From positions 159,128 through 223,127 of the IMG/VR virus record IMGVR_UViG_3300032240_001991: a stretch of DNA of 64,000 nt, one strand, 5' to 3'. Under the pieces are notes generated by a model. That model did no database searches. It had not been told where the DNA came from and saw only the letters and a list, made by a program, of their open reading frames with translations. The DNA comes from a virus. The position numbers were made by a program, and so were the translations under genes. Positions 18,850 through 34,027 of the stretch are shown here, in pieces. How positions within the stretch are numbered: the stretch's first letter is position 1; each line of letters opens with the position of its first letter.

Positions 18850-19329
18850 ATGAAAAAGGTATTAACTTTACTTCTAGTCTCATTGCCACTTAGTGCAATG
18901 TCCGCAGAACTTATATACGAGTTCAAAGATCCTGCCTTTAACGGTATAGGATGGAGCAGCCACGCTCTAACGATTGAGAGTATTGAAAAAAGTCGCCGTG
19001 ATTCTATCAAGGCAGAAAAACAGGCAGAGATAGATAAGCTAGCAGCAGAAGCAGCTAATACTCCGTTAAACAGATTTATGGCTTTATTTCAAAGTCAAGT
19101 TTACGCACAATTAGCTACACAACTATCAAACAATTTATTTAAAAATAACTGTAACGCTAGTGATGGAACTGCTATTCCAGGTTGTGTAAATCCAGTAACC
19201 GGTACGTTTCAACTTGATGGCAACACAGTGACTTGGCTCAAAGGTGTTGATAGTGTTACATTAACTGTAGTTGATAGTAACGGTACTATTACTAAGATTG
19301 AAGTACCAATTGCTAGTTTTGCCTTTTAA
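18850..19329 (+). CDS. csgF: CsgF-like curli assembly factor
   Basis: A 159-aa secreted protein; CsgF of E. coli is 138 aa and anchors the curli nucleator at the outer-membrane CsgG pore. A Sec signal peptide (MKKVLTLLLVSLPLSAMSA) is followed by ELIYEFKDPAFNGIGWS, matching mature CsgF, whose N-terminus inserts in CsgG. The TPLNRFMALFQSQVYAQLA segment and the C-terminal beta-rich part follow. The csgG-like gene starts 3 nt after its stop, which strengthens the call. Confidence 0.88.
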   Translation: MKKVLTLLLVSLPLSAMSAELIYEFKDPAFNGIGWSSHALTIESIEKSRRDSIKAEKQAEIDKLAAEAANTPLNRFMALFQSQVYAQLATQLSNNLFKNNCNASDGTAIPGCVNPVTGTFQLDGNTVTWLKGVDSVTLTVVDSNGTITKIEVPIASFAF

Positions 19330-19332
19330 CTT

Positions 19333-20163
19333 ATGAATATACTACAAAAAATATTAATAGTTATCATGGCTGTAGGACTAACTGCATGTAATACCTTTAG
19401 GCCTTTGCAGAACCCTAACCACGGAAGCCAGGCTCGACCAGTAAGTGTAGCCGCTAAGGCATTTAGTAAGGTACCAGCTCCAGCTGGTCCTCCAGTGATA
19501 GTAGCCGTATACGGATTTAAAGATTTAACTGGACAAAGAAAAAGCAGTAGCACAGTTAGCAGTTTTAGTACCGCAGTAACACAAGGTGCTGATGCTTACC
19601 TAGTTAAGACCATGATGGATGTTGGAAACAGTCAATGGTTTACTGTAGTTGAGCGTGTAGGTTTAGATAATTTATTAAAAGAACGTCAAATGATCAAGCA
19701 GACACGCGAAATCTACGAAGGTGATAAAGCGCGTATGCTACCGCCTATGAGCCTCGCTGGTGTAATAGTAGAAGGTGGAATCGTTGATTATAACAGTAAT
19801 ATCTTAACAGGTGGCACAGGTGCACGTATGTTAGGTATTGGACCTTACACCAAGTACAGCCAAGACGTTGTAGTAATTAATTTACGATTAGTTAGCGTAA
19901 GTAACGGTGAAGTATTACTAAGCGTAACTATCGAAAAGAACTTATTGAGTACTAACGATAGTATCACTGCATTAAAGTTCTTTAATCAAAGCACAGAAGC
20001 TTTTGAATTTGATTCTGGACAGGCTTATAACGAGCCTGCCAATTATGCATTAAGATCTGCAATTGAACAAGGAGTTGTAGAGCTTATAAAACAAGGTGAG
20101 AAAAAAGGTTTGTGGAAATACAAATCAAAAGATAGTCCAATAACAGGAGAGGTTAAGAAATGA
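19333..20163 (+). CDS. csgG: CsgG-like curli secretion lipoprotein
   Basis: A 276-aa protein, the same length as CsgG (277). The N-terminus ends in the lipobox LTAC, so it is an outer-membrane lipoprotein. VIVAVYGFKDLTGQ, FTVVERVGLDNLLKERQM, GGIVDYNSNILTGG and ARMLGIGPYTKYSQD follow the order of CsgG, the nonameric pore of type VIII secretion. It overlaps the next gene's start by 4 nt. Together with CsgF and two curlin-repeat proteins it forms a minimal export system; CsgE and CsgC were not seen. Confidence 0.92.
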   Translation: MNILQKILIVIMAVGLTACNTFRPLQNPNHGSQARPVSVAAKAFSKVPAPAGPPVIVAVYGFKDLTGQRKSSSTVSSFSTAVTQGADAYLVKTMMDVGNSQWFTVVERVGLDNLLKERQMIKQTREIYEGDKARMLPPMSLAGVIVEGGIVDYNSNILTGGTGARMLGIGPYTKYSQDVVVINLRLVSVSNGEVLLSVTIEKNLLSTNDSITALKFFNQSTEAFEFDSGQAYNEPANYALRSAIEQGVVELIKQGEKKGLWKYKSKDSPITGEVKK

Positions 20164-20951
20164 GACAGTATATCGCAGCAGCACTGATGATTGCTAGCCT
20201 GCCAGCGTTAGCAGATGTTACTCCAGTAACTCCGCCTGCAGCACCAACGATTCCCGTAACTGCTACGGTCAGTCCAAATGCTACAGCAGCTTTAGCTGAA
20301 GGTTCAACAAACAGTGTTTTTATTAATCAGTCAGGCGAAAATCCTAATGTTAATATTGAACAGACCGGTGCAGGTAACAAATTAGGAACTCAGGGTTCCC
20401 CAGTACTACTAAATGGTCGTGATCAAGTAGTCATTACTAAACAGGTTGGTAGCAACAACTCAGTTGCGCTATCTGTAACAAATGACACCACTGGTAACAA
20501 TGTAGGTGCTACTACCGTAATTCAACAGATTGGAAACATGAACACTGTTGATGCAGCATGTGGCAACGGTACAACCAGCGGCGGAGTTGGTCTAACCAAC
20601 TGCCGTAACGCTAACTTAAACTGGAAATTTACAGGAAATTCAAACAGCCTGCAATTTCGCGGAACAGGTAATAATGTTGATAGTGCCATTACAGTAAGTG
20701 GTAGCAGTAACAGCTTTGGTATTGATGCAGTTGGAAATAATCACAGCGAAACACTTATGGTTAGCGGTGATCAAAACTCCTTTAACATCAGTCAGAAGAG
20801 CACAGGTGCTGCAGGAAGCAGTGTATTGTTTGATCTAACAGGTACAGCTAACTCTGTAACTGTCAGCCAAGGCGGCAGTGTTGACAACGTGCTAAATGTT
20901 AGAAGCACAGCCAACACCGGCGTATGGAATATCAAACAAGGAAATCAATGA
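20160..20951 (+). CDS. Curlin-repeat secreted protein 1
   Basis: A 263-aa protein with a signal peptide (MRQYIAAALMIASLPALA), a Pro/Thr-rich spacer and imperfect curlin-type repeats, for example NSVFINQSGENPNVNIEQTG, NQVVITKQVGSNNSV and NSFNISQKSTG. The Gln/Asn/Gly/Ser spacing is that of CsgA/CsgB amyloid subunits, though the repeats are more irregular and longer. It is probably exported through the CsgG pore next door. The stop overlaps the start of the FecR gene (ATGA). Confidence 0.82.
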   Translation: MRQYIAAALMIASLPALADVTPVTPPAAPTIPVTATVSPNATAALAEGSTNSVFINQSGENPNVNIEQTGAGNKLGTQGSPVLLNGRDQVVITKQVGSNNSVALSVTNDTTGNNVGATTVIQQIGNMNTVDAACGNGTTSGGVGLTNCRNANLNWKFTGNSNSLQFRGTGNNVDSAITVSGSSNSFGIDAVGNNHSETLMVSGDQNSFNISQKSTGAAGSSVLFDLTGTANSVTVSQGGSVDNVLNVRSTANTGVWNIKQGNQ

Positions 20952-22024
20952 AGTGGATAGCAGCAATTGCTATTCTTTTTTCAGTATCGGCTCAAGCAAG
21001 TATTGGGTCAATAACTGATCTAAATGGTGCTGCCACGATTAAACGTGGCAGTGCTATTTTTACTGCTGCCAAAGGTGCAGCAATAGAACAAAATGATCGC
21101 GTTGAAACTAAAAACGGTAAAGTAAAAATTACCTTCAACGACGATACTACTGTAAGCGTAGCAGAGCATAGCAGCTTAATAATAGACGACTTTGTTTATG
21201 ATCCTAAGTCTGGGGCCGGCAAATTAGGTCTTAAAGCAGCTGGCGGAACTGTTAGATATGTCAGTGGCGCTATAGCTCACAAAAATCCAAACGCGGTTAA
21301 TATTACTACACCAACTGCTGCTATTGCTGTTCGAGGAACAGACTTCGTAATGAGCGTAAATGAGATTGGTAGTAGTATGGTTATTCTTATGCCTAGCTGC
21401 GAGAATGGAGGATTAGGCGAAGTATGCACTAGCGGAGCAATTGATGTTGAAAGTGGTCCTAATACTGTTAGCATGAATCGTCCTTATCAGGCAACGCTAG
21501 TAGAGTCAACTGGACAACCTCCAACTCCACCTATTACTGTAAATTTATTTGCTACACCTGTAGGAAATAATCTTCAAATAAGCCCACCAAAAACTGAATC
21601 AGGTCAGAACGTAGTTGCTGCCGCAAGAGCTGCTGCACAAGCATCTGGTGTTACAAAAAATAGCAATACTAAAGATCCTTCCCCCGAACAACAAGCTGTA
21701 GCAACTGCTGCTCCTGTAACTCCCACAGCAGAAGTACAAACAAATACCAAGGTGCAAACAACTGCACAACAAGAGATTGTGGTAACAGCGACTAAATCTA
21801 ATAAGGATCCCTACCTATTAATAAAATGGGGAGATTCTGCGCAAACACAGCAGATTGGTTGGATATATGAAAGTATTAGTCCTAGCGGATTACATTACGA
21901 AAATGTTGATCTGCCAACTGATACTAATATTACTATCTGGGTTAGCCAAGACGGTGAAGGACACGGATATGCGTTTAGTCCATCGCCACAGGGAAGAATC
22001 AACATTATTCAAAGGTCAAACTAA
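20948..22024 (+). CDS. FecR-domain protein
   Basis: About 358 aa from MKWIAAIAILF (a longer frame from 20924 is rejected because 20948 gives the ATGA overlap and a clean signal peptide). The mature part starts SIGSITDLNGAATIKRG and runs through TTVSVAEHSSLIIDDF and TAAIAVRGTDFVMSV, the FecR fold often found beside CHASE2 cyclases. A Gln/Ala/Thr-rich linker (residues 190-280) and a C-terminal domain follow. It is likely periplasmic and may sense or control assembly; this is inference. Confidence 0.82.
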   Translation: MKWIAAIAILFSVSAQASIGSITDLNGAATIKRGSAIFTAAKGAAIEQNDRVETKNGKVKITFNDDTTVSVAEHSSLIIDDFVYDPKSGAGKLGLKAAGGTVRYVSGAIAHKNPNAVNITTPTAAIAVRGTDFVMSVNEIGSSMVILMPSCENGGLGEVCTSGAIDVESGPNTVSMNRPYQATLVESTGQPPTPPITVNLFATPVGNNLQISPPKTESGQNVVAAARAAAQASGVTKNSNTKDPSPEQQAVATAAPVTPTAEVQTNTKVQTTAQQEIVVTATKSNKDPYLLIKWGDSAQTQQIGWIYESISPSGLHYENVDLPTDTNITIWVSQDGEGHGYAFSPSPQGRINIIQRSN

Positions 22025-22683
22025 TGAAAACTTTAATTTTTTTTATTTTTTTATTTTTTTGCTCTTATAGCTGGGCAGACGTTAATTCTATTAATGTTAA
22101 CCAAACCGCTGGAAATAATAACTTAGTTACTATTAAGCAAAGTACAAAAAATAGTGCCAGTTCAAATTCAATAGACATAACACTACAAGGAGATTCAAAT
22201 AATCTCAATATTTCTCAAAGTGATATGAACGTTAACGATAACGGAGGTCATGTTGCTGTACTTGATGTGCAAGGTAATTCTAATAACATAACTGTACAAC
22301 AAAACAATCGTGGCGGATCAAATAGTGGTCATTCTACTGATAACACAGTAACAGGCAACGGTAATCAAGTGTCAATTACACAATCAGGAAATTTAGAAAA
22401 AAGTTTAGTTGAAAATATTCTTGGTGACAATAATATTACATCGGTTGAACAACATGGCGCAGGAATACATTATGCTGATATCACATTAACTGGGAACGGC
22501 CACTCTGTAACTGTGTCTCAAAGAGACGAAGGAACACATAACGCTACCATCAACTTAACTAATGTAGGAGGATCTAGTACAGCAACCTTAGTACAGACTG
22601 GAAATACTCCTCAAACTATAAGTATAGAACAACAATGTGCAAATTTATCAGGTTGTTCAGTAAACGTAACTCAGAGTCATTAA
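22024..22683 (+). CDS. Curlin-repeat secreted protein 2
   Basis: A 219-aa protein with signal peptide MKTLIFFIFLFFCSYSWA and repeats such as NSINVNQTAGNNNLVTIKQS, NNLNISQSDMN, NNITVQQNNRGG and NQVSITQSGN. These match the alternating Gln/Asn curlin pattern better than protein 1. The C-terminus carries two Cys (QQCANLSGCSV) that could form a disulfide. One subunit may nucleate and the other polymerise, as CsgB and CsgA do. It overlaps the preceding stop (TAATG). Confidence 0.85.
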   Translation: MKTLIFFIFLFFCSYSWADVNSINVNQTAGNNNLVTIKQSTKNSASSNSIDITLQGDSNNLNISQSDMNVNDNGGHVAVLDVQGNSNNITVQQNNRGGSNSGHSTDNTVTGNGNQVSITQSGNLEKSLVENILGDNNITSVEQHGAGIHYADITLTGNGHSVTVSQRDEGTHNATINLTNVGGSSTATLVQTGNTPQTISIEQQCANLSGCSVNVTQSH

Positions 22684-22684
22684 C

Positions 22685-24727
22685 ATGAAGAAAATATTAC
22701 TTAATCCGTGGTGGTCACTTTTAACATTAGTAGCCATTGTGCTGGTTAGAATTTGGGATCCTAGTTTTGTTGAAAGCGTAAGATTAAGATATTTTGATCA
22801 ATTAGTTACAAGTCGTCCTACTACAGAAATTCCGGTCAATGTTGTAAATGTAGACGAAGCTGCATTAGACAAATATGGTCAATGGCCGTTTAGTAGAGAT
22901 GTGTATGCTGATATAATTAAGGAGCTTTACGCTAGGAACGCAGGTCTAGTAGTTTTTAACGTACTGATGCCCGAGGCCGATCGTTTTAAGCAAGATGCCG
23001 TCCTCAGCAAAACCATGCAGGAATATCCTGTGGTACTACCCACACTAGGCAACAATAAGCAGAAAAATACTAGCGTAATAGCTCCAGCTACTGTAATAGG
23101 CGCTGATCCAAAAGGATTAGTTGCAGAATATCCTGGATTGATCGCTAATGTTCCTGAACTAGAACAGGCTGCTGTGGGTGTAGGAGTGGTTAATACTTTT
23201 CCTGAAATTGACGGCGTTGTTCGTCGTACTCCGTTAGTAATTTATAGTCAAGAGCATTTGAGACCAAGCCTTGCCCTAGAGGTGTTGCGTGTAGCAGCAG
23301 GGGATGCGGCTTTTCAAATCAAGCTAGACGAGAACGGCGTTAATGCTTTACGTATTCCTCAATTTGGTAAAATAACCACAGACAATATAAGTAGAGTCTG
23401 GATTGATTGGAGTCAACGCCCAAAGAGTTATAGTCTCGCTAATCTTCCTAAAGATTTTAATAAACAGATTGTTATAGTGGGTGCCAGTGCGGCAGGTATT
23501 GCTAATCCTGTAGCGACTAGTCGAGGTGAAATTTGGCCTCAAGATTTACAAGCATCAGTTATTGGAACTATGCTAGCCGGTTCTACCATTCAACGACCTG
23601 CATACGCTGACGCTTTAGAATTAGGCGTTCTAATTACGGCTGGCATTATATTAATTGTATTAGCAAGGTGGTTATATGTAGGTATTGTGGCTACAGTAAT
23701 TTTTGCTGTTGGCGGTGTATTAGGTAGTATGTATGTTTATCAACACTATCTATTTTTATTTGATGCTACTACTTTTACCGCAGGCATAATCTTAATTGCA
23801 TTACACGCTTACATGGTAAAATTTCTAGATGAGTTTTTTCAGAAGCAAATGATTAGAAAACAATTCCAAAGTTATCTAAGTCCAGACCTAGTCGCTAAAC
23901 TAATTAAAGATCCAAGCCTACTAAGATTAGGTGGTGAAGAAAAAGAATTGAGTATTATGTTTACTGATGTTCGTGGGTTTACTGCAATTAGCGAACACTA
24001 CGGTAAGAATGTACAAGGGCTAACGTCTATTATGAATCGCTATATGACTGCAATGACTAAAAGAATACTAGAGAATGACGGAACTCTAGACAAATATATT
24101 GGCGATGCTCAAATGGCATTTTGGAACGCTCCGCTTGATGAATCTAAGCACTGCAAAGATGCTGTTAAAAGTGCCTTAGATATGTTAGGAGACCTAGAGA
24201 AATTTAACAAGGAAGTTGAACTAGAAGGTGTTCCTCCTTTTGGTATGGGTATTGGAATTAATACCGGTGTAGTTGTAGTAGGTAATATGGGGTCTGAACA
24301 AAGGTTTGATTATACCTGCTTAGGTGACGCAGTAAATCTTGCTAGTAGACTTGAAGGACAAAGCAAAAACTACGGTGTCCTAATTGTATTAGGCCCGGTT
24401 ACTGCTGATCGTGTTAAAGACGAATACCAAGTTATAGAACTTGATTGCATTGCAGTCAAAGGAAAAACACAGGGTGTAAACATATTTACTGTGTTAGGTC
24501 CAATAGGTTGCGTAAGTCAAGAAGATGTAGACTTGCATAATCAAATGCTGTCTTATTATAGGGCAACAGATTTTAATACTGCAATAATATTATGTAATTC
24601 GTTAAAAGGAAAACTTAACGGATTAATGGATCAGTATTACGACATGTGGATGCAACGTTGCGAAGATATGAAGTGGACTACCTTATCAGAAGACTGGGAC
24701 GGAGTATATCGAGCTACTTCAAAATAA
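22685..24727 (+). CDS. CHASE2-domain class III adenylate/guanylate cyclase
   Basis: A 680-aa membrane sensor. An N-terminal membrane segment, a periplasmic CHASE2 domain (about residues 35-300), three membrane segments (about 305-380) and a class III cyclase domain (about 420-610) are in the canonical order. FTDVRGFTAISE and KYIGDAQMAFWNAP carry the metal-binding Asp residues, and YTCLGDAVNLASRLEG is the transition-state segment. It should make cAMP (or cGMP) in response to a periplasmic cue. It begins 2 nt after the second curlin gene, so it is part of the same operon. Confidence 0.92.
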   Translation: MKKILLNPWWSLLTLVAIVLVRIWDPSFVESVRLRYFDQLVTSRPTTEIPVNVVNVDEAALDKYGQWPFSRDVYADIIKELYARNAGLVVFNVLMPEADRFKQDAVLSKTMQEYPVVLPTLGNNKQKNTSVIAPATVIGADPKGLVAEYPGLIANVPELEQAAVGVGVVNTFPEIDGVVRRTPLVIYSQEHLRPSLALEVLRVAAGDAAFQIKLDENGVNALRIPQFGKITTDNISRVWIDWSQRPKSYSLANLPKDFNKQIVIVGASAAGIANPVATSRGEIWPQDLQASVIGTMLAGSTIQRPAYADALELGVLITAGIILIVLARWLYVGIVATVIFAVGGVLGSMYVYQHYLFLFDATTFTAGIILIALHAYMVKFLDEFFQKQMIRKQFQSYLSPDLVAKLIKDPSLLRLGGEEKELSIMFTDVRGFTAISEHYGKNVQGLTSIMNRYMTAMTKRILENDGTLDKYIGDAQMAFWNAPLDESKHCKDAVKSALDMLGDLEKFNKEVELEGVPPFGMGIGINTGVVVVGNMGSEQRFDYTCLGDAVNLASRLEGQSKNYGVLIVLGPVTADRVKDEYQVIELDCIAVKGKTQGVNIFTVLGPIGCVSQEDVDLHNQMLSYYRATDFNTAIILCNSLKGKLNGLMDQYYDMWMQRCEDMKWTTLSEDWDGVYRATSK

Positions 24728-26050: not shown

Positions 26051-26572
26051 ATGAAGAGATTACTAGTTTCTGTTGTATTGTCCTTAATTCTAGTTAGTTG
26101 TGGAAAACCTCCTCCGCCACCTGCTGCTACTGTAGATTTAACCGTTCCCTATTCTAGTGCAGACGACGCAGCCGTTGCTATGCTGCAAATTGCTATGAGT
26201 GAAACTAAATCTAGTGATTACGAATACGGCGGATTTGTTGTCGTTAACGGTGACAAGTATTATGCATCTCTTCCGGTAACAGATAAAGATACAGATAGAG
26301 TTGATTACATTGCAAAAGTTCCGGCAGACTATAAAATTGTAGCAATTTATCATACTCACCCTAAGGGATTTAAATCTGAACAGTATTCAGGTGTTGATGT
26401 ACAGACTTCTAAAAATTTACAAGTTAACAGCTATCTTGGTGTAATAGCTGACAGATCTATTAGAATCTTTATTCCCGGATTTACATCAACCTTTGCTGAC
26501 GACCCTGCCGCTAATGGGGGCGTTGGACTTGGTTCTTACGGAACGATCATAGCCTCATATATTAAGAAATGA
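26051..26572 (+). CDS. Lipoprotein with JAMM/DUF4329-like metalloprotease domain
   Basis: A 173-aa protein with a lipobox (LILVSCG) followed by a Pro-rich linker. YEYGGFVV, IYHTHPKGF and the following SGVDVQTS give the E...HxH...SxxD pattern of JAMM zinc proteases and of DUF4329. It is predicted to be anchored in an envelope membrane facing the periplasm or surface. It overlaps the start of the cytochrome-b-like gene by 4 nt. The target is unknown. Confidence 0.7.
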   Translation: MKRLLVSVVLSLILVSCGKPPPPPAATVDLTVPYSSADDAAVAMLQIAMSETKSSDYEYGGFVVVNGDKYYASLPVTDKDTDRVDYIAKVPADYKIVAIYHTHPKGFKSEQYSGVDVQTSKNLQVNSYLGVIADRSIRIFIPGFTSTFADDPAANGGVGLGSYGTIIASYIKK

Positions 26573-27045
26573 CCAGGACTGAAAAGAAGGTGGCGGCCTT
26601 CGCTGGAGTTTTAACAGTAGTTGGTTATTTCTTACCGCTTCACCTTTATCTTACTCCTAAAAAAGATTTAGGTTACGCTCTAGGATGGGCCGGAGCTATT
26701 ATGATGACTTTACTATTTTTATATAGCATTAAGAAACGTGCAACTTGGGGATGGTTAGAGCGTACACCAATACTAAGAAAATGGTTTGATATACATATGC
26801 TTTTTGGTATTTTTGGACCAATTAGCATTCTATATCATTGTGGTTACCAATTAGGAGCAACCAACAGCAATATGGCCCTTTGGTCTATGATTATAGTTGC
26901 AATAAGCGGATTTATAGGCAGATTCCTTTATCATCGAACAGGCTGGGAAATTCTATTTAAGTGGTGGCACATAGTGCATTTACCTTTTGTAGGGATGCTA
27001 GTTTTAACAGCAATCATACATATTTTCTCAACATTCTATTATTAA
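26569..27045 (+). CDS. Cytochrome-b-like membrane protein
   Basis: A 158-aa protein with four hydrophobic helices. Histidines are placed in and near the helices: DIHMLFGIFG, LYHCGYQL, FLYHRTGW, KWWHIVHLPF and IIHIFSTFY. This helix-plus-His arrangement is that of di-haem b-type cytochromes and ferric-reductase-like proteins. It is followed by an outer-membrane barrel and two multihaem c cytochromes, so it could pass quinone electrons outwards. Haem ligation is inferred from pattern. Confidence 0.65.
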   Translation: MTRTEKKVAAFAGVLTVVGYFLPLHLYLTPKKDLGYALGWAGAIMMTLLFLYSIKKRATWGWLERTPILRKWFDIHMLFGIFGPISILYHCGYQLGATNSNMALWSMIIVAISGFIGRFLYHRTGWEILFKWWHIVHLPFVGMLVLTAIIHIFSTFYY

Positions 27046-27061
27046 TGTACATATATTATCC

Positions 27062-27069
27062 TATAAATA
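27062..27069 (+). promoter_or_regulatory. T4-like late promoter box
   Basis: TATAAATA lies 29 nt before the GTG at 27099, with GAGGGA as ribosome site. Confidence 0.55.
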
Positions 27070-27098
27070 GATAAAAATCTGTCTATAGAGGGAATATT

Positions 27099-29288
27099 GT
27101 GACGCCACAGGCTGTAATAGATTCTACAAATTTTAATGATCTATTTGATGATTTAAATTTTACATCTACTCTGAACAGCCTATTGGATAGTGATCTTGGT
27201 GTTCAAGATACGCTTAATAAATTAAAAACTCAAAAAGTATTACCTAAAGAAAATCTTAATTCTTTATTAGAAGAAAATAAAGTTATAACAGATAAAACAG
27301 TATTTGTTACAAAAAAACCGCAAAAGAAAAGTAAGACTTTATCTAGGTCAATTGCAGTTATATTAGGGTTAACATCTTACGCCGGATATTTTAATTTTAA
27401 TAATACAGAGCTAGTATCTATACCTGTACCTACTCCAGCAGAACAAAAAAAAACTAATCAAATACCTTTTAAGTTTACTAAACCAATTGTAGAAAATACT
27501 CGTACAACAACTCATATTGGTCCTAAAGATATTACTTCTATAGAAACAACAGATAATACTCCAGAACTAGTTCAGCCTACGGTCCAAGAAACTCAAGAAG
27601 ATCAACAACCAAAAATTTTTTTAGATACTCGAGATCCTCAAATATTAATAGACGAAGCTAGAGCATTATTAATTAGTGGACCTGAAAATTACGAACAAGC
27701 AATAACCAATTTACGAAGTGTTATTTTAAGTCAACCGTTAAAAAGTGATTACGCAAAAACTGCACACGAAATGTTAGGATACGCCTACGAAAAATCAAAA
27801 AAGTGGGATAAAGCAATGGGAGAGTATTCTAAGTATCTTGCACTTTATCCAGAAGATAACGAAGATAGAACTAGAGTCAAACAAAGACTAATGGCGCTAG
27901 AAATTTTTAAAACTCCTGAAGGGTTTGATATTAATAAAAGCGCAATAAAACAAAAACCAAGAGAAGGCGATAAACAGGAACTAAGTGGTTCAATTTCAGA
28001 GTATCTTTACTCAGATTCAAACTCAGATGAATTGAAATTCCTGCAATGGAACAATAAACAGATTAATTCGATTACTGGAATTAATCTATTATATCAATGG
28101 CAACATAATCAATATTCTCTTACATCTAAAATAAGATTAACAGAAGTAAGAGATTTAACCGGTAAGAAAGGAAATAGGAATAATTTAGGATTAGCTTATG
28201 TTGATTTTGACGATTCTTGGAAAGAGTATAATATAAGAGCAGGAAGACAATCTCCCGAAGCAGGTGCAATAAGTAAATTTGATGGTCTTTCTACAACAAT
28301 TTCTTTAAACGATAAAATTAAAATTAAAGCTGCTGCTGGATCCCCTTACGTTGGCCCAGGAAACAACACAAATAGAAAATTTATAGGAACAGAAATATCA
28401 TACGAACGAGGACCATCTTTAACTCTAGGTGGATATTTAAATAGAGGAACTGCAGATGGATTTTTAGAACGAATGGCAATTGGCACCGAAGTATGGTATC
28501 ATAAAGGAGCAAATACAGGAATTCTAAGAACTGAATACGATACCTTATACCACTCATGGAATTCTATAACTTTTCAAGGAAGTACAGGAGTTAAAGGATA
28601 TCGTTTATTTGGTGTTTATGAAAAAAGAAGAAGCCCAATGCCATTTGGAGACGTTGGATTAGGAATAGGATTATTAAGTCCTGATAAACAGGTATATAAT
28701 TCAGTAGGAAGTTTGGTCAGTGAATCAGGATTAAGTTCTTCAGAGATCTATCATTACATTTCTGATACAACCCCAACTGCTTCAGCTTTGGTATTAGGTA
28801 TTAGTAAGCCTTTAAATGAAGATTGGACCGCTACTTTTAATTGGCAGAAAACAAATTTATCAACTACACCAGGGTTTGATCTAACTCCAAACTTTGATAG
28901 TGTCCCTGTACAGGTAGGACAAAATAATAACTATTCTTATAATTTACATTTAAGAGCGGAAAATTTTAAAATAGCAGGCAATACATTTGAAATAGTAATG
29001 AATCAAACCACTGGACAGATACAAGCTCGATATATTACACTTGCAGACAGTTTTAAATTTAATGGTAAAAAAGATATATTTTTTGGTATTTTAAGAGCGG
29101 ACGAATATGCGCAAAGTTATGGCACAAATAAATCTTTAAGTTTAATCTTAAGAGAAATACATTCTCTAAGTGATCAAACCTCAATTGAAACCCAGTACGG
29201 TATATCTATAGGTAAAAACATTTATCTAAATCAATCTTTACCTAATACTAATCAAAATTTCTATATTGGAATACGTCATGATTTTTAA
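27099..29288 (+). CDS. TPR and beta-barrel outer-membrane protein
   Basis: A 729-aa protein. It has a polar N-terminal region (about 1-80), one hydrophobic segment (SIAVILGLTSYAGYF, about 85-100), a Pro/Thr-rich linker, a TPR-like helical part (about 180-270, including YEQAITNLRSVIL and DKAMGEYSKYLALYP), and a long C-terminal part of alternating beta strands ending in YIGIRHDF. A final Phe is the usual outer-membrane barrel signal. It resembles BcsC/PgaA-type TPR porins in layout. The long region before the hydrophobic segment is odd for a secreted protein. A role as porin for the cytochromes is inference. Confidence 0.65.
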   Translation: MTPQAVIDSTNFNDLFDDLNFTSTLNSLLDSDLGVQDTLNKLKTQKVLPKENLNSLLEENKVITDKTVFVTKKPQKKSKTLSRSIAVILGLTSYAGYFNFNNTELVSIPVPTPAEQKKTNQIPFKFTKPIVENTRTTTHIGPKDITSIETTDNTPELVQPTVQETQEDQQPKIFLDTRDPQILIDEARALLISGPENYEQAITNLRSVILSQPLKSDYAKTAHEMLGYAYEKSKKWDKAMGEYSKYLALYPEDNEDRTRVKQRLMALEIFKTPEGFDINKSAIKQKPREGDKQELSGSISEYLYSDSNSDELKFLQWNNKQINSITGINLLYQWQHNQYSLTSKIRLTEVRDLTGKKGNRNNLGLAYVDFDDSWKEYNIRAGRQSPEAGAISKFDGLSTTISLNDKIKIKAAAGSPYVGPGNNTNRKFIGTEISYERGPSLTLGGYLNRGTADGFLERMAIGTEVWYHKGANTGILRTEYDTLYHSWNSITFQGSTGVKGYRLFGVYEKRRSPMPFGDVGLGIGLLSPDKQVYNSVGSLVSESGLSSSEIYHYISDTTPTASALVLGISKPLNEDWTATFNWQKTNLSTTPGFDLTPNFDSVPVQVGQNNNYSYNLHLRAENFKIAGNTFEIVMNQTTGQIQARYITLADSFKFNGKKDIFFGILRADEYAQSYGTNKSLSLILREIHSLSDQTSIETQYGISIGKNIYLNQSLPNTNQNFYIGIRHDF

Positions 29289-29808
29289 AATTTTATCTAC
29301 AATCTTTCTTTTATTTTTTTCTTATCAAATTTCAGCAGCAGAGTGCACTGCATATGAAAAATTACATCCATTATGGCCATTAACCGGAGCTCATTTAAGT
29401 ACAGGAAAGTGTACGACCTGTGCATATTGCCATATTCCTGCAGGTAACCCTGTATGGATAGGAACTCCAAGAATGTGTATTTCCTGTCATAACGGAGATC
29501 CTAGATGGACAACAGTAGGAAGGAGCGCCAAACATTTACCTACGTTGTTATTAGATTGCGCAGGTTGTCATAATACCTTAGCTTTTAATAACAAAAACGG
29601 AATAACTCAGATGATGATACACAATACTGGATACCCTACGGTCATGTGTAAAGGTTGCCATAATGGTATGTATACCAGCTATGGTGCACAAGGAATGTCA
29701 AATGATCATCCTAAAACGGTAACTAGGAATGGTGTAAAAATAACCGTAGCTGCTGTTGACTGTAATTATAGTGGTTGCCATAACCCTAACCGTAATTCAT
29801 TTAATTAA
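29278..29808 (+). CDS. Multihaem c-type cytochrome 1
   Basis: About 176 aa from MIFKILSTIFLLFFSY, a Sec signal peptide ending in AA-E. Haem-binding motifs CAYCH, CISCH, CAGCH and CKGCH are present, plus a CNYSGCH variant with three spacer residues. The first mature segment PLTGAHLSTGKC is shared with the next gene product. It overlaps the barrel gene by 11 nt. It should be a periplasmic or surface electron carrier; haem attachment would need the host Ccm machinery. Confidence 0.88.
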   Translation: MIFKILSTIFLLFFSYQISAAECTAYEKLHPLWPLTGAHLSTGKCTTCAYCHIPAGNPVWIGTPRMCISCHNGDPRWTTVGRSAKHLPTLLLDCAGCHNTLAFNNKNGITQMMIHNTGYPTVMCKGCHNGMYTSYGAQGMSNDHPKTVTRNGVKITVAAVDCNYSGCHNPNRNSFN

Positions 29809-29842
29809 TATAATCTATGTAGATTTTTAAAATCTACATTTG

Positions 29843-29850
29843 TATAAATA
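29843..29850 (+). promoter_or_regulatory. T4-like late promoter box
   Basis: TATAAATA lies 23 nt before the GTG at 29874, with GAGGAGA as ribosome site. Confidence 0.55.
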
Positions 29851-29873
29851 ATGTATATTTGAGGAGAAGAATT

Positions 29874-30680
29874 GTGAATAAGTTTAAAAAGTTAATAACT
29901 TCAGTCACTGTAATGTTAGGTTTACTTTTTTCTTTTATTAGTGTGCCAACTGTTGTTACAGGAGCATTATTCTTTTCTCCTTCAGCAGAAGCTGCTGAAT
30001 GTACGTTATATGAGACTATACACCCTAACTTTCCGTTAACTGGTGCTCACTTATCTACTGGTAAGTGTAGTACGTGTGCGAGTTGCCATGCTGGTGGAAT
30101 ATTCCTAGGAACTCCAAAAATCTGTGCAACCTGTCACAACGGAAATCCTAGTGGTCAAATTTCATCTGCTACTGTAGGGAAATCAGCATTGCATCCTCCA
30201 ATTGGAACTACAAGTTGCGATTCTTGCCATAATACTACTAGCTTTACTGCTACATGGAAAATGAATCACGCTAGCGTGAGTGGACAAAGATGCGACAGCT
30301 GTCATAACGGTTCCTACACCACTTATGCGGCCATGGGTAAACCAAGAGATCACATTCCAACCACTGCAGACTGCGGTACTTGCCACGTTACTAAAGACAC
30401 TAGCTCACACAATAGCGATGCTTGGGGCATGTCGCTTGCTGAAATACATCGTGGTATCACATCAGGCTGTGTTACTTGCCATGACGGTGCGCACCATCCA
30501 GCACTAGGTAAGATAGACTATGCCCCCGGACATCCTAGCACCAGCGATGCCTGCGAAACTTGCCACAGCATTAATAATACTTTCAAATGTGCGTCGTTGA
30601 TTCATGACAAGATGTTTATGTATTCGTTAAAACAAGGCCTAGCAGGCTTAATTAAAACTTCAGATAAAAATCGAATATAA
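29874..30680 (+). CDS. Multihaem c-type cytochrome 2 (seven CxxCH)
   Basis: About 268 aa from the GTG with a good GAGGAGA site (an upstream TTG at 29859 is rejected because it lies in the ribosome site). The signal peptide ends at about SAEA-AECT. Motifs CASCH, CATCH, CDSCH (twice), CGTCH, CVTCH and CETCH give seven predicted c haems, with extra His (HPPIG, HAS, HIPT, HHPA) as distal ligands. It is a paralogue of the preceding cytochrome and resembles the cytochrome c3-like proteins of proteobacterial extracellular electron transfer. A terminator follows. Confidence 0.9.
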   Translation: MNKFKKLITSVTVMLGLLFSFISVPTVVTGALFFSPSAEAAECTLYETIHPNFPLTGAHLSTGKCSTCASCHAGGIFLGTPKICATCHNGNPSGQISSATVGKSALHPPIGTTSCDSCHNTTSFTATWKMNHASVSGQRCDSCHNGSYTTYAAMGKPRDHIPTTADCGTCHVTKDTSSHNSDAWGMSLAEIHRGITSGCVTCHDGAHHPALGKIDYAPGHPSTSDACETCHSINNTFKCASLIHDKMFMYSLKQGLAGLIKTSDKNRI

Positions 30681-30693
30681 TCTATCTAATAAC

Positions 30694-30726
30694 GGACGCC
30701 CCTTTTATGGGGCGTTCTCTTATTTC
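30694..30726 (+). terminator. Rho-independent terminator
   Basis: ACGCCCC (30696-30702) pairs with GGGGCGT (30709-30715), loop TTTTAT, then TCTCTTATTT. It ends the cytochrome unit. Confidence 0.8.
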
Positions 30727-30945: not shown

Positions 30946-31566
30946 ATGCAATCAACTAGATTAACCTGGCAAACACAACAAGTTGGTAGGTTTATGTATC
31001 CCTATGCCTTTTGGGATAATTTTTTATCAGAAGATGAATTAAAGGCAATTGAACAGTTTTGCCTTACTAAGCCATTAATAGATTCTATGACTATTGGCGG
31101 AGCAGAACAGGCTAACCTAACAGATGCCAGAAGATCTAAGAGTGTTATCTATGAATTTAATCCAGACATTTTCTGGATCTTTGATAGAATGAAGAGTATC
31201 ACTGAGTATGTTAATTCTGAATGTTTTAACTTTGATCTATTAGGCTTTGATTATTTTCAATATGCCGAATATCAAGGGGAAGGATCACGGTATGAGTTTC
31301 ATACTGATTTAATCTACGGTAACGATTTACCTCCTTATATGATATTTCCTCGAAAACTATCGTTTACTCTAGTTCTTAGTGACAATAGCGAATATACTGG
31401 TGGGGAATTACAATTTCAACCAGATACTCAAAATCCAGTTACACTTGATCAACGTAGAGGAAGAATTGTAGCATTTCCGTCATGGGTACTGCACAGAGTA
31501 TGTCCGTTAACATCAGGTACTAGAAGATCAATAGTCTGGTGGGCAACTGGACCTAAATTTAGGTAA
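30946..31566 (+). CDS. 2OG-Fe(II) oxygenase (prolyl-hydroxylase-like)
   Basis: A 206-aa protein. SRYEFHTDLIYG has the HxD ligands, YTGGELQFQP is the conserved strand, and FPSWVLHRVCPLTSGTRRSI holds the distal His and the 2-oxoglutarate-binding Arg. This is the full double-stranded beta-helix set. Phages of T4 type often carry such enzymes; their substrates are mostly unknown. A second, unrelated-looking oxygenase gene follows 6 nt later. Confidence 0.85.
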   Translation: MQSTRLTWQTQQVGRFMYPYAFWDNFLSEDELKAIEQFCLTKPLIDSMTIGGAEQANLTDARRSKSVIYEFNPDIFWIFDRMKSITEYVNSECFNFDLLGFDYFQYAEYQGEGSRYEFHTDLIYGNDLPPYMIFPRKLSFTLVLSDNSEYTGGELQFQPDTQNPVTLDQRRGRIVAFPSWVLHRVCPLTSGTRRSIVWWATGPKFR

Positions 31567-31572
31567 AAAATT

Positions 31573-32085
31573 ATGAGTAATCTACAGATTTTTAAAAATG
31601 TTTTACGACCAGAAACTCTAGCTGCTGTTTTAGAAGAAAGAACAAATTTCTTAGGACAACCAGTTTGGAGATGTAGCGATCATTTTTGGGGAGAAGAAAT
31701 TAAAGTTGGCGTCACTGGAGTGGTTACTTCAACGATGTGCAGCCACAGAATAGGTGAAATGGTCAGAAACGACATATTGCACATTATGCCCCCTTGTACT
31801 ACAATGGCGGTACAACATTATATGTGGCATAAGCATTCCGCAATTAGTAGTCATAATGATTGGGCGTATGCATGGGCAGCTACAATTTACTTAAACGAAA
31901 ACTGGAATTTAGATTGGGGTGGACTGTTCATGTGGCAAGATTCAGATAACGGAGAAATACACGGGCACGTTCCTGAATACAATAGCATGGCTCTTAATAA
32001 AGGCAAGGTTAATCATTTTGTTACTCCACTAAGTCCTTTAGCTCCAGAAAATAGAATTTCCTTACAAATCTGGGGTAAGGTATAA
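31573..32085 (+). CDS. 2OG-Fe(II) oxygenase, second
   Basis: A 170-aa protein. ISSHNDWAYAWAATIYLNE gives HxD, DWGGLFMWQD is the conserved strand, VNHFVTPLSPLAP has the distal His, and ENRISLQIW has the Arg. Length is that of a minimal oxygenase domain. It follows the first oxygenase in the same unit and may act in sequence with it; this is inference. Confidence 0.8.
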   Translation: MSNLQIFKNVLRPETLAAVLEERTNFLGQPVWRCSDHFWGEEIKVGVTGVVTSTMCSHRIGEMVRNDILHIMPPCTTMAVQHYMWHKHSAISSHNDWAYAWAATIYLNENWNLDWGGLFMWQDSDNGEIHGHVPEYNSMALNKGKVNHFVTPLSPLAPENRISLQIWGKV

Positions 32086-32737: not shown

Positions 32738-34027
32738 ATGAAAGATTATAAAATTCAAGACATTGGGCTAGCCGCGTGGGGCCATAAAGAAATTGCTATC
32801 GCAGAAACTGAAATGCCAGGATTGGTTGCTATTCGAGAAGAATATCGATCACAACAGCCACTAAAAGGTGCTAGAATTGCAGGGTCATTACATATGACTA
32901 TTCAGACTGCTGTTTTAATTAAAACTCTAGTAGAACTAGGTGCCAGTGTACGCTGGTCGAGTTGTAATATCTTTTCAACGCAAGATCATGCAGCAGCCGC
33001 AGTTGCAGACTTAGGTATTCCTGTGTTTGCTTGGAAAGGCGAAACAGAAGAAGAATATTGGTGGTGCATTGAACAGACGTTAAAAGGACCTGATGGTTGG
33101 TCGCCTAACATGATCCTCGACGACGGCCACGACCTTACTTGGTATGTAATGAATAAGTGTCCACAGCTTGTTGATAACATTGTAGGAGTTAGTGAAGAGA
33201 CCACTACAGGAATACATCGTATTATTGAAGCTATTAATAGAGGTGCGTTTCCATTCCGTGCTATTAACGTTAACGACAGTGTAACCAAAAGTAAGTTTGA
33301 TAATTTATACGGTTGTAGAGAAAGCCTAGTTGATGCAATTAAACGCGCAACTGACGTTATGATTGCAGGTAAGACCGCAGTCGTATGTGGGTTCGGCGAC
33401 GTAGGTAAAGGCTCTGCAGAAGCACTACGTGCACTTAGTGCCCAGGTTTGGGTTACTGAAGTTGATCCTATTTGCGCACTACAAGCAGCAATGGAAGGTT
33501 ATCGTGTAGTTACTATGGAATATGCTGCTGATAAGGCAGACATTTTTGTAACCGCTACGGGCAATATCAATGTTATTACACACGACCATATGCAGGCAAT
33601 GAAAAATAATGCTATTGTTTGCAACATTGGACATTTTGATAACGAAATTGATATTGCTGGATTAAAGAAATATACCTGGGAAAATATTAAACCTCAGGTA
33701 GATCATGTCATCTTCCCAAATGGCAAGCGTATTATTATACTTGCTGAAGGTCGATTAGTTAACTTAGGTTGCGCTACTGGGCACCCTAGTTATGTAATGA
33801 GTAACTCATTTACTAATCAAGTATTAGCCCAAGTTGAATTATGGACTAATTCATCTGCTTATGAAAAAGGCAAACTTTACATATTGCCAAAACATCTAGA
33901 TGAAAAGGTAGCTAGGTTGCATTTAGCACAGATAGGTGCTACAATTACTACATTAACTAAGGAACAGGCTGAATACATCGGTGTAACAGTTGATGGTCCA
34001 TTTAAGTCTGATTCTTATAGATATTAA
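32738..34027 (+). CDS. ahcY: S-adenosylhomocysteine hydrolase
   Basis: A 429-aa enzyme that splits S-adenosylhomocysteine to adenosine and homocysteine, relieving product inhibition of methyltransferases. [15 protein letters not shown] is the N-terminal substrate loop, [12 protein letters not shown] the family signature, [16 protein letters not shown] (about residue 213) the NAD loop, and the C-terminus ends KSDSYRY as in the family. Length fits the shorter AhcY type. It sits inside the tRNA region without a partner MetK, but the window encodes several methyltransferases that would profit. Confidence 0.96.

Follow-up and report, generated by a model that had tools for sequence, protein, structure and literature searches.

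Introduction

Bacterial clusters termed PCC3, the closest described counterparts of the genes reported here, are a proposed extracellular electron-transfer system whose function is unproven, and in S. lithotrophicus ES-1 they are downregulated on Fe(II) (PMC8788666). Sideroxydans has two, Slit_0867-0870 and Slit_1446-1449 (He et al., 2017; PMC5566968). The second encodes, in order, an inner-membrane protein (IMP), a periplasmic cytochrome, an extracellular cytochrome, and a porin (PMC12016527), with 24 haems in Slit_1447 (PMC8788666). Published haem medians for PCC3 are 34 and 21, and all PCC3 and PCC4 IMPs carry two WX3HX13H motifs and an SGXXG motif, the motif His residues being read as ligands of two b haems (PMC5566968).

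PCC3 shares with the phage genes described below a porin that combines a TPR region with a barrel, a multihaem cytochrome of the extracellular type, an IMP with the motifs just named, and co-location of the genes. It differs in having a 21-27-haem periplasmic cytochrome, for which the phage set has no equivalent, and cytochromes of 10-85 haems, as against proteins of five and seven. PCC4 likewise has a porin, small multihaem cytochromes, and an IMP with the same His motifs, and, unlike the phage set, three periplasmic multihaem cytochromes together with other redox genes (He et al., 2017); its IMP family is reported not to be related to the PCC3 family in overall sequence (PMC5566968), and we made no direct sequence comparison with PCC4. 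The MtrAB, MtoAB, and PioAB systems resemble the phage set only in how they work, by a barrel and a multihaem cytochrome across the outer membrane. Cyc2 has a single haem fused to a porin, whereas the phage haems sit on multihaem proteins distinct from the porin.

Genes for photosynthesis and for other metabolic functions are known from phages. The csgGF curli pores of phage Melnitz are, like the present set, host-derived metabolic or envelope genes on environmental phages (PMC9004378). No multi-part electron conduit or trans-envelope electron-transfer system, and no multihaem cytochrome, was found for phages in the literature that we searched, which comprised open PMC papers and no preprints. 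In archaea an outer-membrane porin is not expected. The Borg elements of Methanoperedens archaea, which are giant and extrachromosomal, have been reported to carry multihaem cytochromes (PMC9605863; PMC11208441); unlike the phage set they are archaeal and are not tailed phages, and they were not compared in sequence.

Here we describe what is, to our knowledge and within the literature searched, the first porin-cytochrome conduit seen on phages. We think it probable, with real room for doubt, that the four genes are a miniaturised, PCC3-derived conduit that exchanges electrons between the quinone pool of the infected cell and the outside.

A four-gene module in a large phage record

The stretch of DNA analysed, referred to as the window, is 64,000 nucleotides long and spans positions 159128-223127 of a 326,658-base virus record of the IMG/VR type. 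This 327-kb record is a large tailed phage. It encodes a terminase large subunit with 54% identity to those of PA5oct-like Pseudomonas jumbo phages, and the window contains 28 tRNA genes and tail proteins similar to S74 and T4 gp9-10 (Pfam). The host is only hinted at, as a member of the Pseudomonadota, by the likeness of the terminase to that of PA5oct-like Pseudomonas phages. Four genes for an IMP, a barrel protein, and two multihaem cytochromes (MHC1 and MHC2) lie on the + strand at 26569-30680, in the place and order given in the preliminary description. The features of the region are as follows.

26051..26572, + strand: lipoprotein of family DUF4329 (Pfam, E 2e-10) with an HxH...S..D JAMM-like motif
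26569..27045, + strand: IMP, 158 aa, with two HX13H pairs (motifs and homology to the PCC3 inner-membrane protein)
27099..29288, + strand: outer-membrane porin, 729 aa, with C-terminal Phe (AlphaFold2, Foldseek, and homology to PCC3-type porins)
27636-27908, + strand: TPR helices of the porin (AlphaFold2)
27972-29282, + strand: beta-barrel of the porin, about 22 strands (AlphaFold2)
29278..29808, + strand: MHC1, 176 aa, predicted secreted pentahaem c cytochrome (haem motifs)
29874..30680, + strand: MHC2, 268 aa, predicted secreted heptahaem c cytochrome with a C-terminal Cys and a helical tail (motifs and Pfam)
30696..30715, + strand: hairpin directly 3´ of MHC2, with arms ACGCCCC and GGGGCGT around TTTTAT (read from sequence)

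A motif scan of the whole 327-kb record found clustered haem motifs only in the MHC1 and MHC2 genes. The end of the DUF4329 gene overlaps the start of the IMP gene by 4 nt (ATGA), and the gene is probably an operon neighbour of IMP; it was not seen in the other phage modules, and relatives therefore give no support for counting it as a module member. The hairpin looks terminator-like and could mark the end of the transcription unit.

The inner-membrane protein

The product of the 26569 gene carries the motifs WX3HX13H, SGXXG, and WX3HX13H exactly and in this order (W-FDI-H-x13-H ... SGFIG ... W-HIV-H-x13-H). The full set did not occur in 200 shuffles of the + strand of the window, and all three motifs are also exact in the related contigs L007 and L034. 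Four ligand His residues and the SG..G motif are invariant in 11 aligned phage and bacterial IMPs, so the protein met the test of paired His residues, whose absence was to have refuted the proposed conduit. Given its two HX13H pairs, we predict a membrane protein with two b haems. It had been described as a His-rich protein of four helices; the membrane character and the His pairs stand and the helix count probably does not. The hydropathy scan gave four peaks and missed the TM3 region that holds the first His pair and aligns to bacterial IMPs, and five transmembrane helices are most likely, an assignment that rests on hydropathy and alignment, without a topology program or a structure.

Identity to IMPs of bacterial clusters is 40% and 30% in two comparisons (L054 and L057, respectively). 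The PCC3 protein is about 300 aa long, as against 158 aa for the phage IMP, and none of the five aligned phage IMPs has the loop of about 150 aa that lies between TM4 and TM5 of the bacterial proteins. A PDB sequence search with the phage protein gave no match.

The position of the IMP gene varies among phages. It ends 54 nt upstream of the barrel gene in the window, directly follows MHC2 in L007 and L034, and is unlinked, elsewhere on the same contig, in a 328-kb record and one 70-kb contig. In the 328-kb record a homologue of window gene 25439, a gene that in the window precedes the IMP region, comes after the IMP; it therefore appears that the barrel-cytochrome cassette changed its position with respect to the IMP. 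A scan for viral IMPs returned seven contigs, five of which carry the module (six of eight if the record of the window is counted), and the two without it are fragments of 22 and 48 kb. In some modules, including those of two large records (G003 and G005), no IMP could be recognised. In two related phages a secreted protein of 193-197 aa and unknown family is encoded directly upstream of the unlinked IMP (L065, 9262-9843; L066, 1457-2050), and this protein could be an additional component.

The porin and the cytochromes

AlphaFold2 modelled the 27099 product, mostly at pLDDT 70-90, as helices at residues 180-270 (the TPR region) followed by 22 strands at 292-728 that end at Phe729. The barrel prediction, whose failure had also been named as a refutation, thus held. 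Residues 1-174 are disordered and lie outside the model; the N-terminal part differs from that of the bacterial PCC3 porin. Foldseek matched the model to outer-membrane porins (best 5ldt, E 6e-12) with low TM-scores; the fold matches were generic porins, ushers, and AlgE/BcsC with no specific relative, and matches in a viral library were generic as well. Only the TPR part was matched in a PDB sequence search. Unlike an MtrB-type porin, the protein has 22 strands in the model and a TPR region, and no MtrB was among the 50 fold matches listed; NCBIfam searches gave the window proteins no match to the DmsE-family decahaem cytochrome or to MtrB/PioB. The barrel ORF contains no haem-motif cluster. 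In the N-terminal part (27099-27620), an extension of about 80 aa precedes the hydrophobic export segment, which is unexplained for an outer-membrane protein; it is present in the window, L003, L004, L009, and L014, and absent in L007 and L008.

The counts of five and seven c haems proposed at the outset hold. MHC1 has four CXXCH sites, one CX4CH site, and exactly five His residues outside these sites; the L004 sequence aligned to the CX4CH is a CXXCH (CNYCH). MHC2, which matches Pfam Cytochrome_C7 (E 8.6e-10), has seven CXXCH sites and exactly seven non-motif His residues, invariant across seven phage homologues. The CXXCH counts were never reached in 20,000 shuffles of each protein, and one spare His per haem, judged from the sequences, is what would be expected for bis-His haems. 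Haem stacking could not be judged, since the AlphaFold2 model of MHC2 (seven sequences) had a pLDDT of 36. A PDB sequence search with MHC2 gave one marginal match, to a reaction-centre cytochrome.

MHC1 likely starts at ATG 29278, which gives it an 11-nt overlap with the end of the barrel gene. This overlap is kept in several lineages, and translation of the barrel and MHC1 is therefore probably coupled. The start of MHC2 is likely GTG 29874, behind a GAGGAG ribosome site; TTG 29859 lies inside that ribosome-binding region.

A reduced relative of bacterial PCC3

The four proteins are homologous, part by part, to those of bacterial PCC3-type clusters, as judged by sequence comparison, so the parallel with porin-cytochrome conduits, drawn at first by analogy, gains support. 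The name PCC3 is applied to the bacterial clusters here on the evidence of their gene order, haem counts, and sizes, without direct comparison to the Slit_ sequences. A profile of the phage barrels had matches in 6 genomes from a sample of 399 Pseudomonadota and, within one bacterial family, in 70 of 150; E values against porins in PCC3-type clusters were 1e-18 to 1e-63. Four clusters (L162, L163, L167, and L168) encode, in the order of Slit_1446-1449, an IMP (about 300 aa where complete), a cytochrome with 24 haems, one or two others with 13-36, and a porin. Both phage cytochromes are much closer to the extracellular type than to the one with 24 haems: MHC2 gave E 6e-23 against the extracellular PCC3-type cytochrome and 1e-8 against the 24-haem type (blastp), and MHC1 gave E 9e-10 against the porin-adjacent cytochrome.

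The phage set is strongly reduced. Its IMP lacks the loop, it has 12 haems where 30 or more are usual, and it has no 24-haem cytochrome. Haem numbers on the PCC3 scale are not met by the seven plus five of the window or by the seven or nine of the main cytochrome in relatives. A haem-motif scan of the 327-kb record found no periplasm-spanning cytochrome of 21-27 haems, and protein searches of eight phage records returned no 24-haem homologue, only marginal matches to the short cytochromes; the wire would thus be incomplete without host parts. With the 24-haem cytochrome, the IMP size, and the haem numbers not met, we regard the set as a miniature derived from PCC3 and not as a full member. As a natural minimal PCC3 made of small proteins with few haems, it should be easier to express and to study structurally than the 24- to 85-haem originals.

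The closer match to the extracellular cytochrome than to the periplasmic one, together with the distinct N-terminal part of the porin and the lack of an IMP on some phage contigs, would also fit a surface disguise. The porin and short cytochromes would then mimic a host receptor complex formed by the PCC3 porin and extracellular cytochrome, and would replace or cap it, blocking superinfection or freeing progeny from debris, with electron transfer incidental. We consider this very unlikely, given that contigs bearing the cytochromes and barrel retain the inner-membrane cytochrome b even when it is unlinked, and that conservation extends to every haem motif and every spare His ligand, features for which a decoy would have no use.

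Distribution among phages

That no phage was known with such a set had been part of the preliminary description. This remains true of GenBank phages, as the module was not found in 50,697 of them, and searches of phage, plasmid, PHROGs, and NCBIfam collections returned no true relatives of its proteins. It does not extend to uncultivated phages, where at least 16 other phage-contig lineages have the cytochrome family, most with the barrel in view. IMG/VR scans found the cytochrome and barrel together on many contigs of several metagenomes. The main cytochrome family, with seven or nine haems, forms 17 phage-contig lineages at a cut of 90% amino acid identity, which include records of 166, 179, 266, 328, and 369 kb besides that of 327 kb. 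The barrel adjoins a cytochrome in all but two of them: the L036 contig stops at the cytochrome, and in L039 we recognised no barrel. The distant versions have nine haems, and gene order is swapped once (L037). A further 106-kb viral contig (G566) carries a barrel with 6-haem and 7-haem cytochromes of the module family, the 6-haem protein being longer than MHC1 of the window.

A rival reading is an assembly artefact or bacterial passenger DNA, with the cluster of bacterial origin and either fused to phage sequence or carried as decaying cargo. The record is metagenomic and its ends are not shown to be closed, which leaves room for such a reading. Against it, the same module recurs on independent contigs from several metagenomes, the GC of the module stretch is near that of the rest of the window, and a terminase is present in five of the six large module records (G000, G001, G002, G003, and G005). 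The module is under purifying selection across phages, with dN/dS of 0.04-0.24 where computable. The phage barrels form one group apart from the bacterial ones (support 86/90), and all but one of the 13 fall in a clade supported at 100/100. The artefact reading is close to refuted. The barrel tree fits one old capture, with moderate support for the whole group and a root that is not fixed.

The adjacency of barrel and cytochrome also bears on whether MHC1 and MHC2 could act in the periplasm as reductases or as an electron reservoir, for example against oxidants, with the IMP supplying electrons from quinol and the barrel a mere pore. Multihaem cytochromes of small size are often found in the periplasm, neither protein was shown to have a lipobox or surface signal, and one related module (L007) lies near a Redoxin/AhpC-type gene. 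We nonetheless think this unlikely, as the barrel adjoins the cytochrome in nearly every contig with the flank in view and the two match the porin and extracellular-cytochrome pair of bacterial clusters.

Discussion

We favour a conduit to the outside, on the basis of what was observed or computed: gene content, the haem-ligand pattern, the predicted barrel fold, homology to PCC3-type clusters, conservation, and purifying selection. Its assembly, surface location, electron flow and direction, and benefit are inferred. In the mechanism that we propose, the IMP, through its two b haems, would give electrons to the quinone pool in the inner membrane of the host or take them from it. The short multihaem cytochromes would relay the electrons as far as the TPR-barrel porin and across it, and a surface cytochrome would exchange them with an outside partner such as iron, humics, or another cell. 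CytC_asm, a haem-attachment protein, was not found in six phage records, which, together with the lack of a periplasm-spanning cytochrome, suggests reliance on host Ccm proteins and periplasmic carriers. The c haems would be attached by Ccm proteins of the host, and its periplasmic cytochromes, or a 24-haem PCC3 cytochrome of its own, would probably bridge the periplasm. The direction of electron flow is not readable from sequence. The simplest benefit to the phage would be a valve on the quinone pool, either outlet or inlet, that sustains respiration and membrane potential during the long replication of a large phage.

A more far-reaching version, which we offer tentatively and rather doubt, is that the 12 haems and the IMP form a streamlined, phage-specific conduit by which the virus would connect the quinone pool electrically to the environment even in cells without extracellular electron transfer of their own, possibly with phage curli fibres encoded 2-8 kb upstream. 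If the conduit works, viruses would directly change extracellular electron exchange, including that with iron and humics and interspecies transfer, and respiration would be a target of phage takeover. A shrunken electron wire on giant bacterial viruses suggests that the respiration of infected cells is rewired.

Neighbouring genes

A curli-type cluster at 18850-24727 encodes CsgF, CsgG, two curlin-like secreted proteins (one with Pfam Curlin_rpt), FecR, and a CHASE2-adenylate cyclase. We set aside the curli genes (18.8-22.7 kb) as part of the module, since none of 80 CsgG-bearing viral loci (L068-L147) has a multihaem cytochrome, barrel, or IMP within about 10 kb. Reported phage curli modules, those of Melnitz and pelagimyophages, lack fibre subunits (PMC9004378), and the candidate fibre proteins of the window would thus be unusual. 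At least 174 viral stretches in IMG/VR contain CsgG relatives, so phage curli pores are very common in uncultivated phages.

Directly 3´ of the module, between tRNA genes, lies a tandem pair of 2OG-Fe(II) oxygenase genes (30946-32085; Pfam). Further on among the tRNA genes, a 429-aa ORF at 32738-34027 encodes what we take, by eye, to be an adenosylhomocysteinase-like protein.
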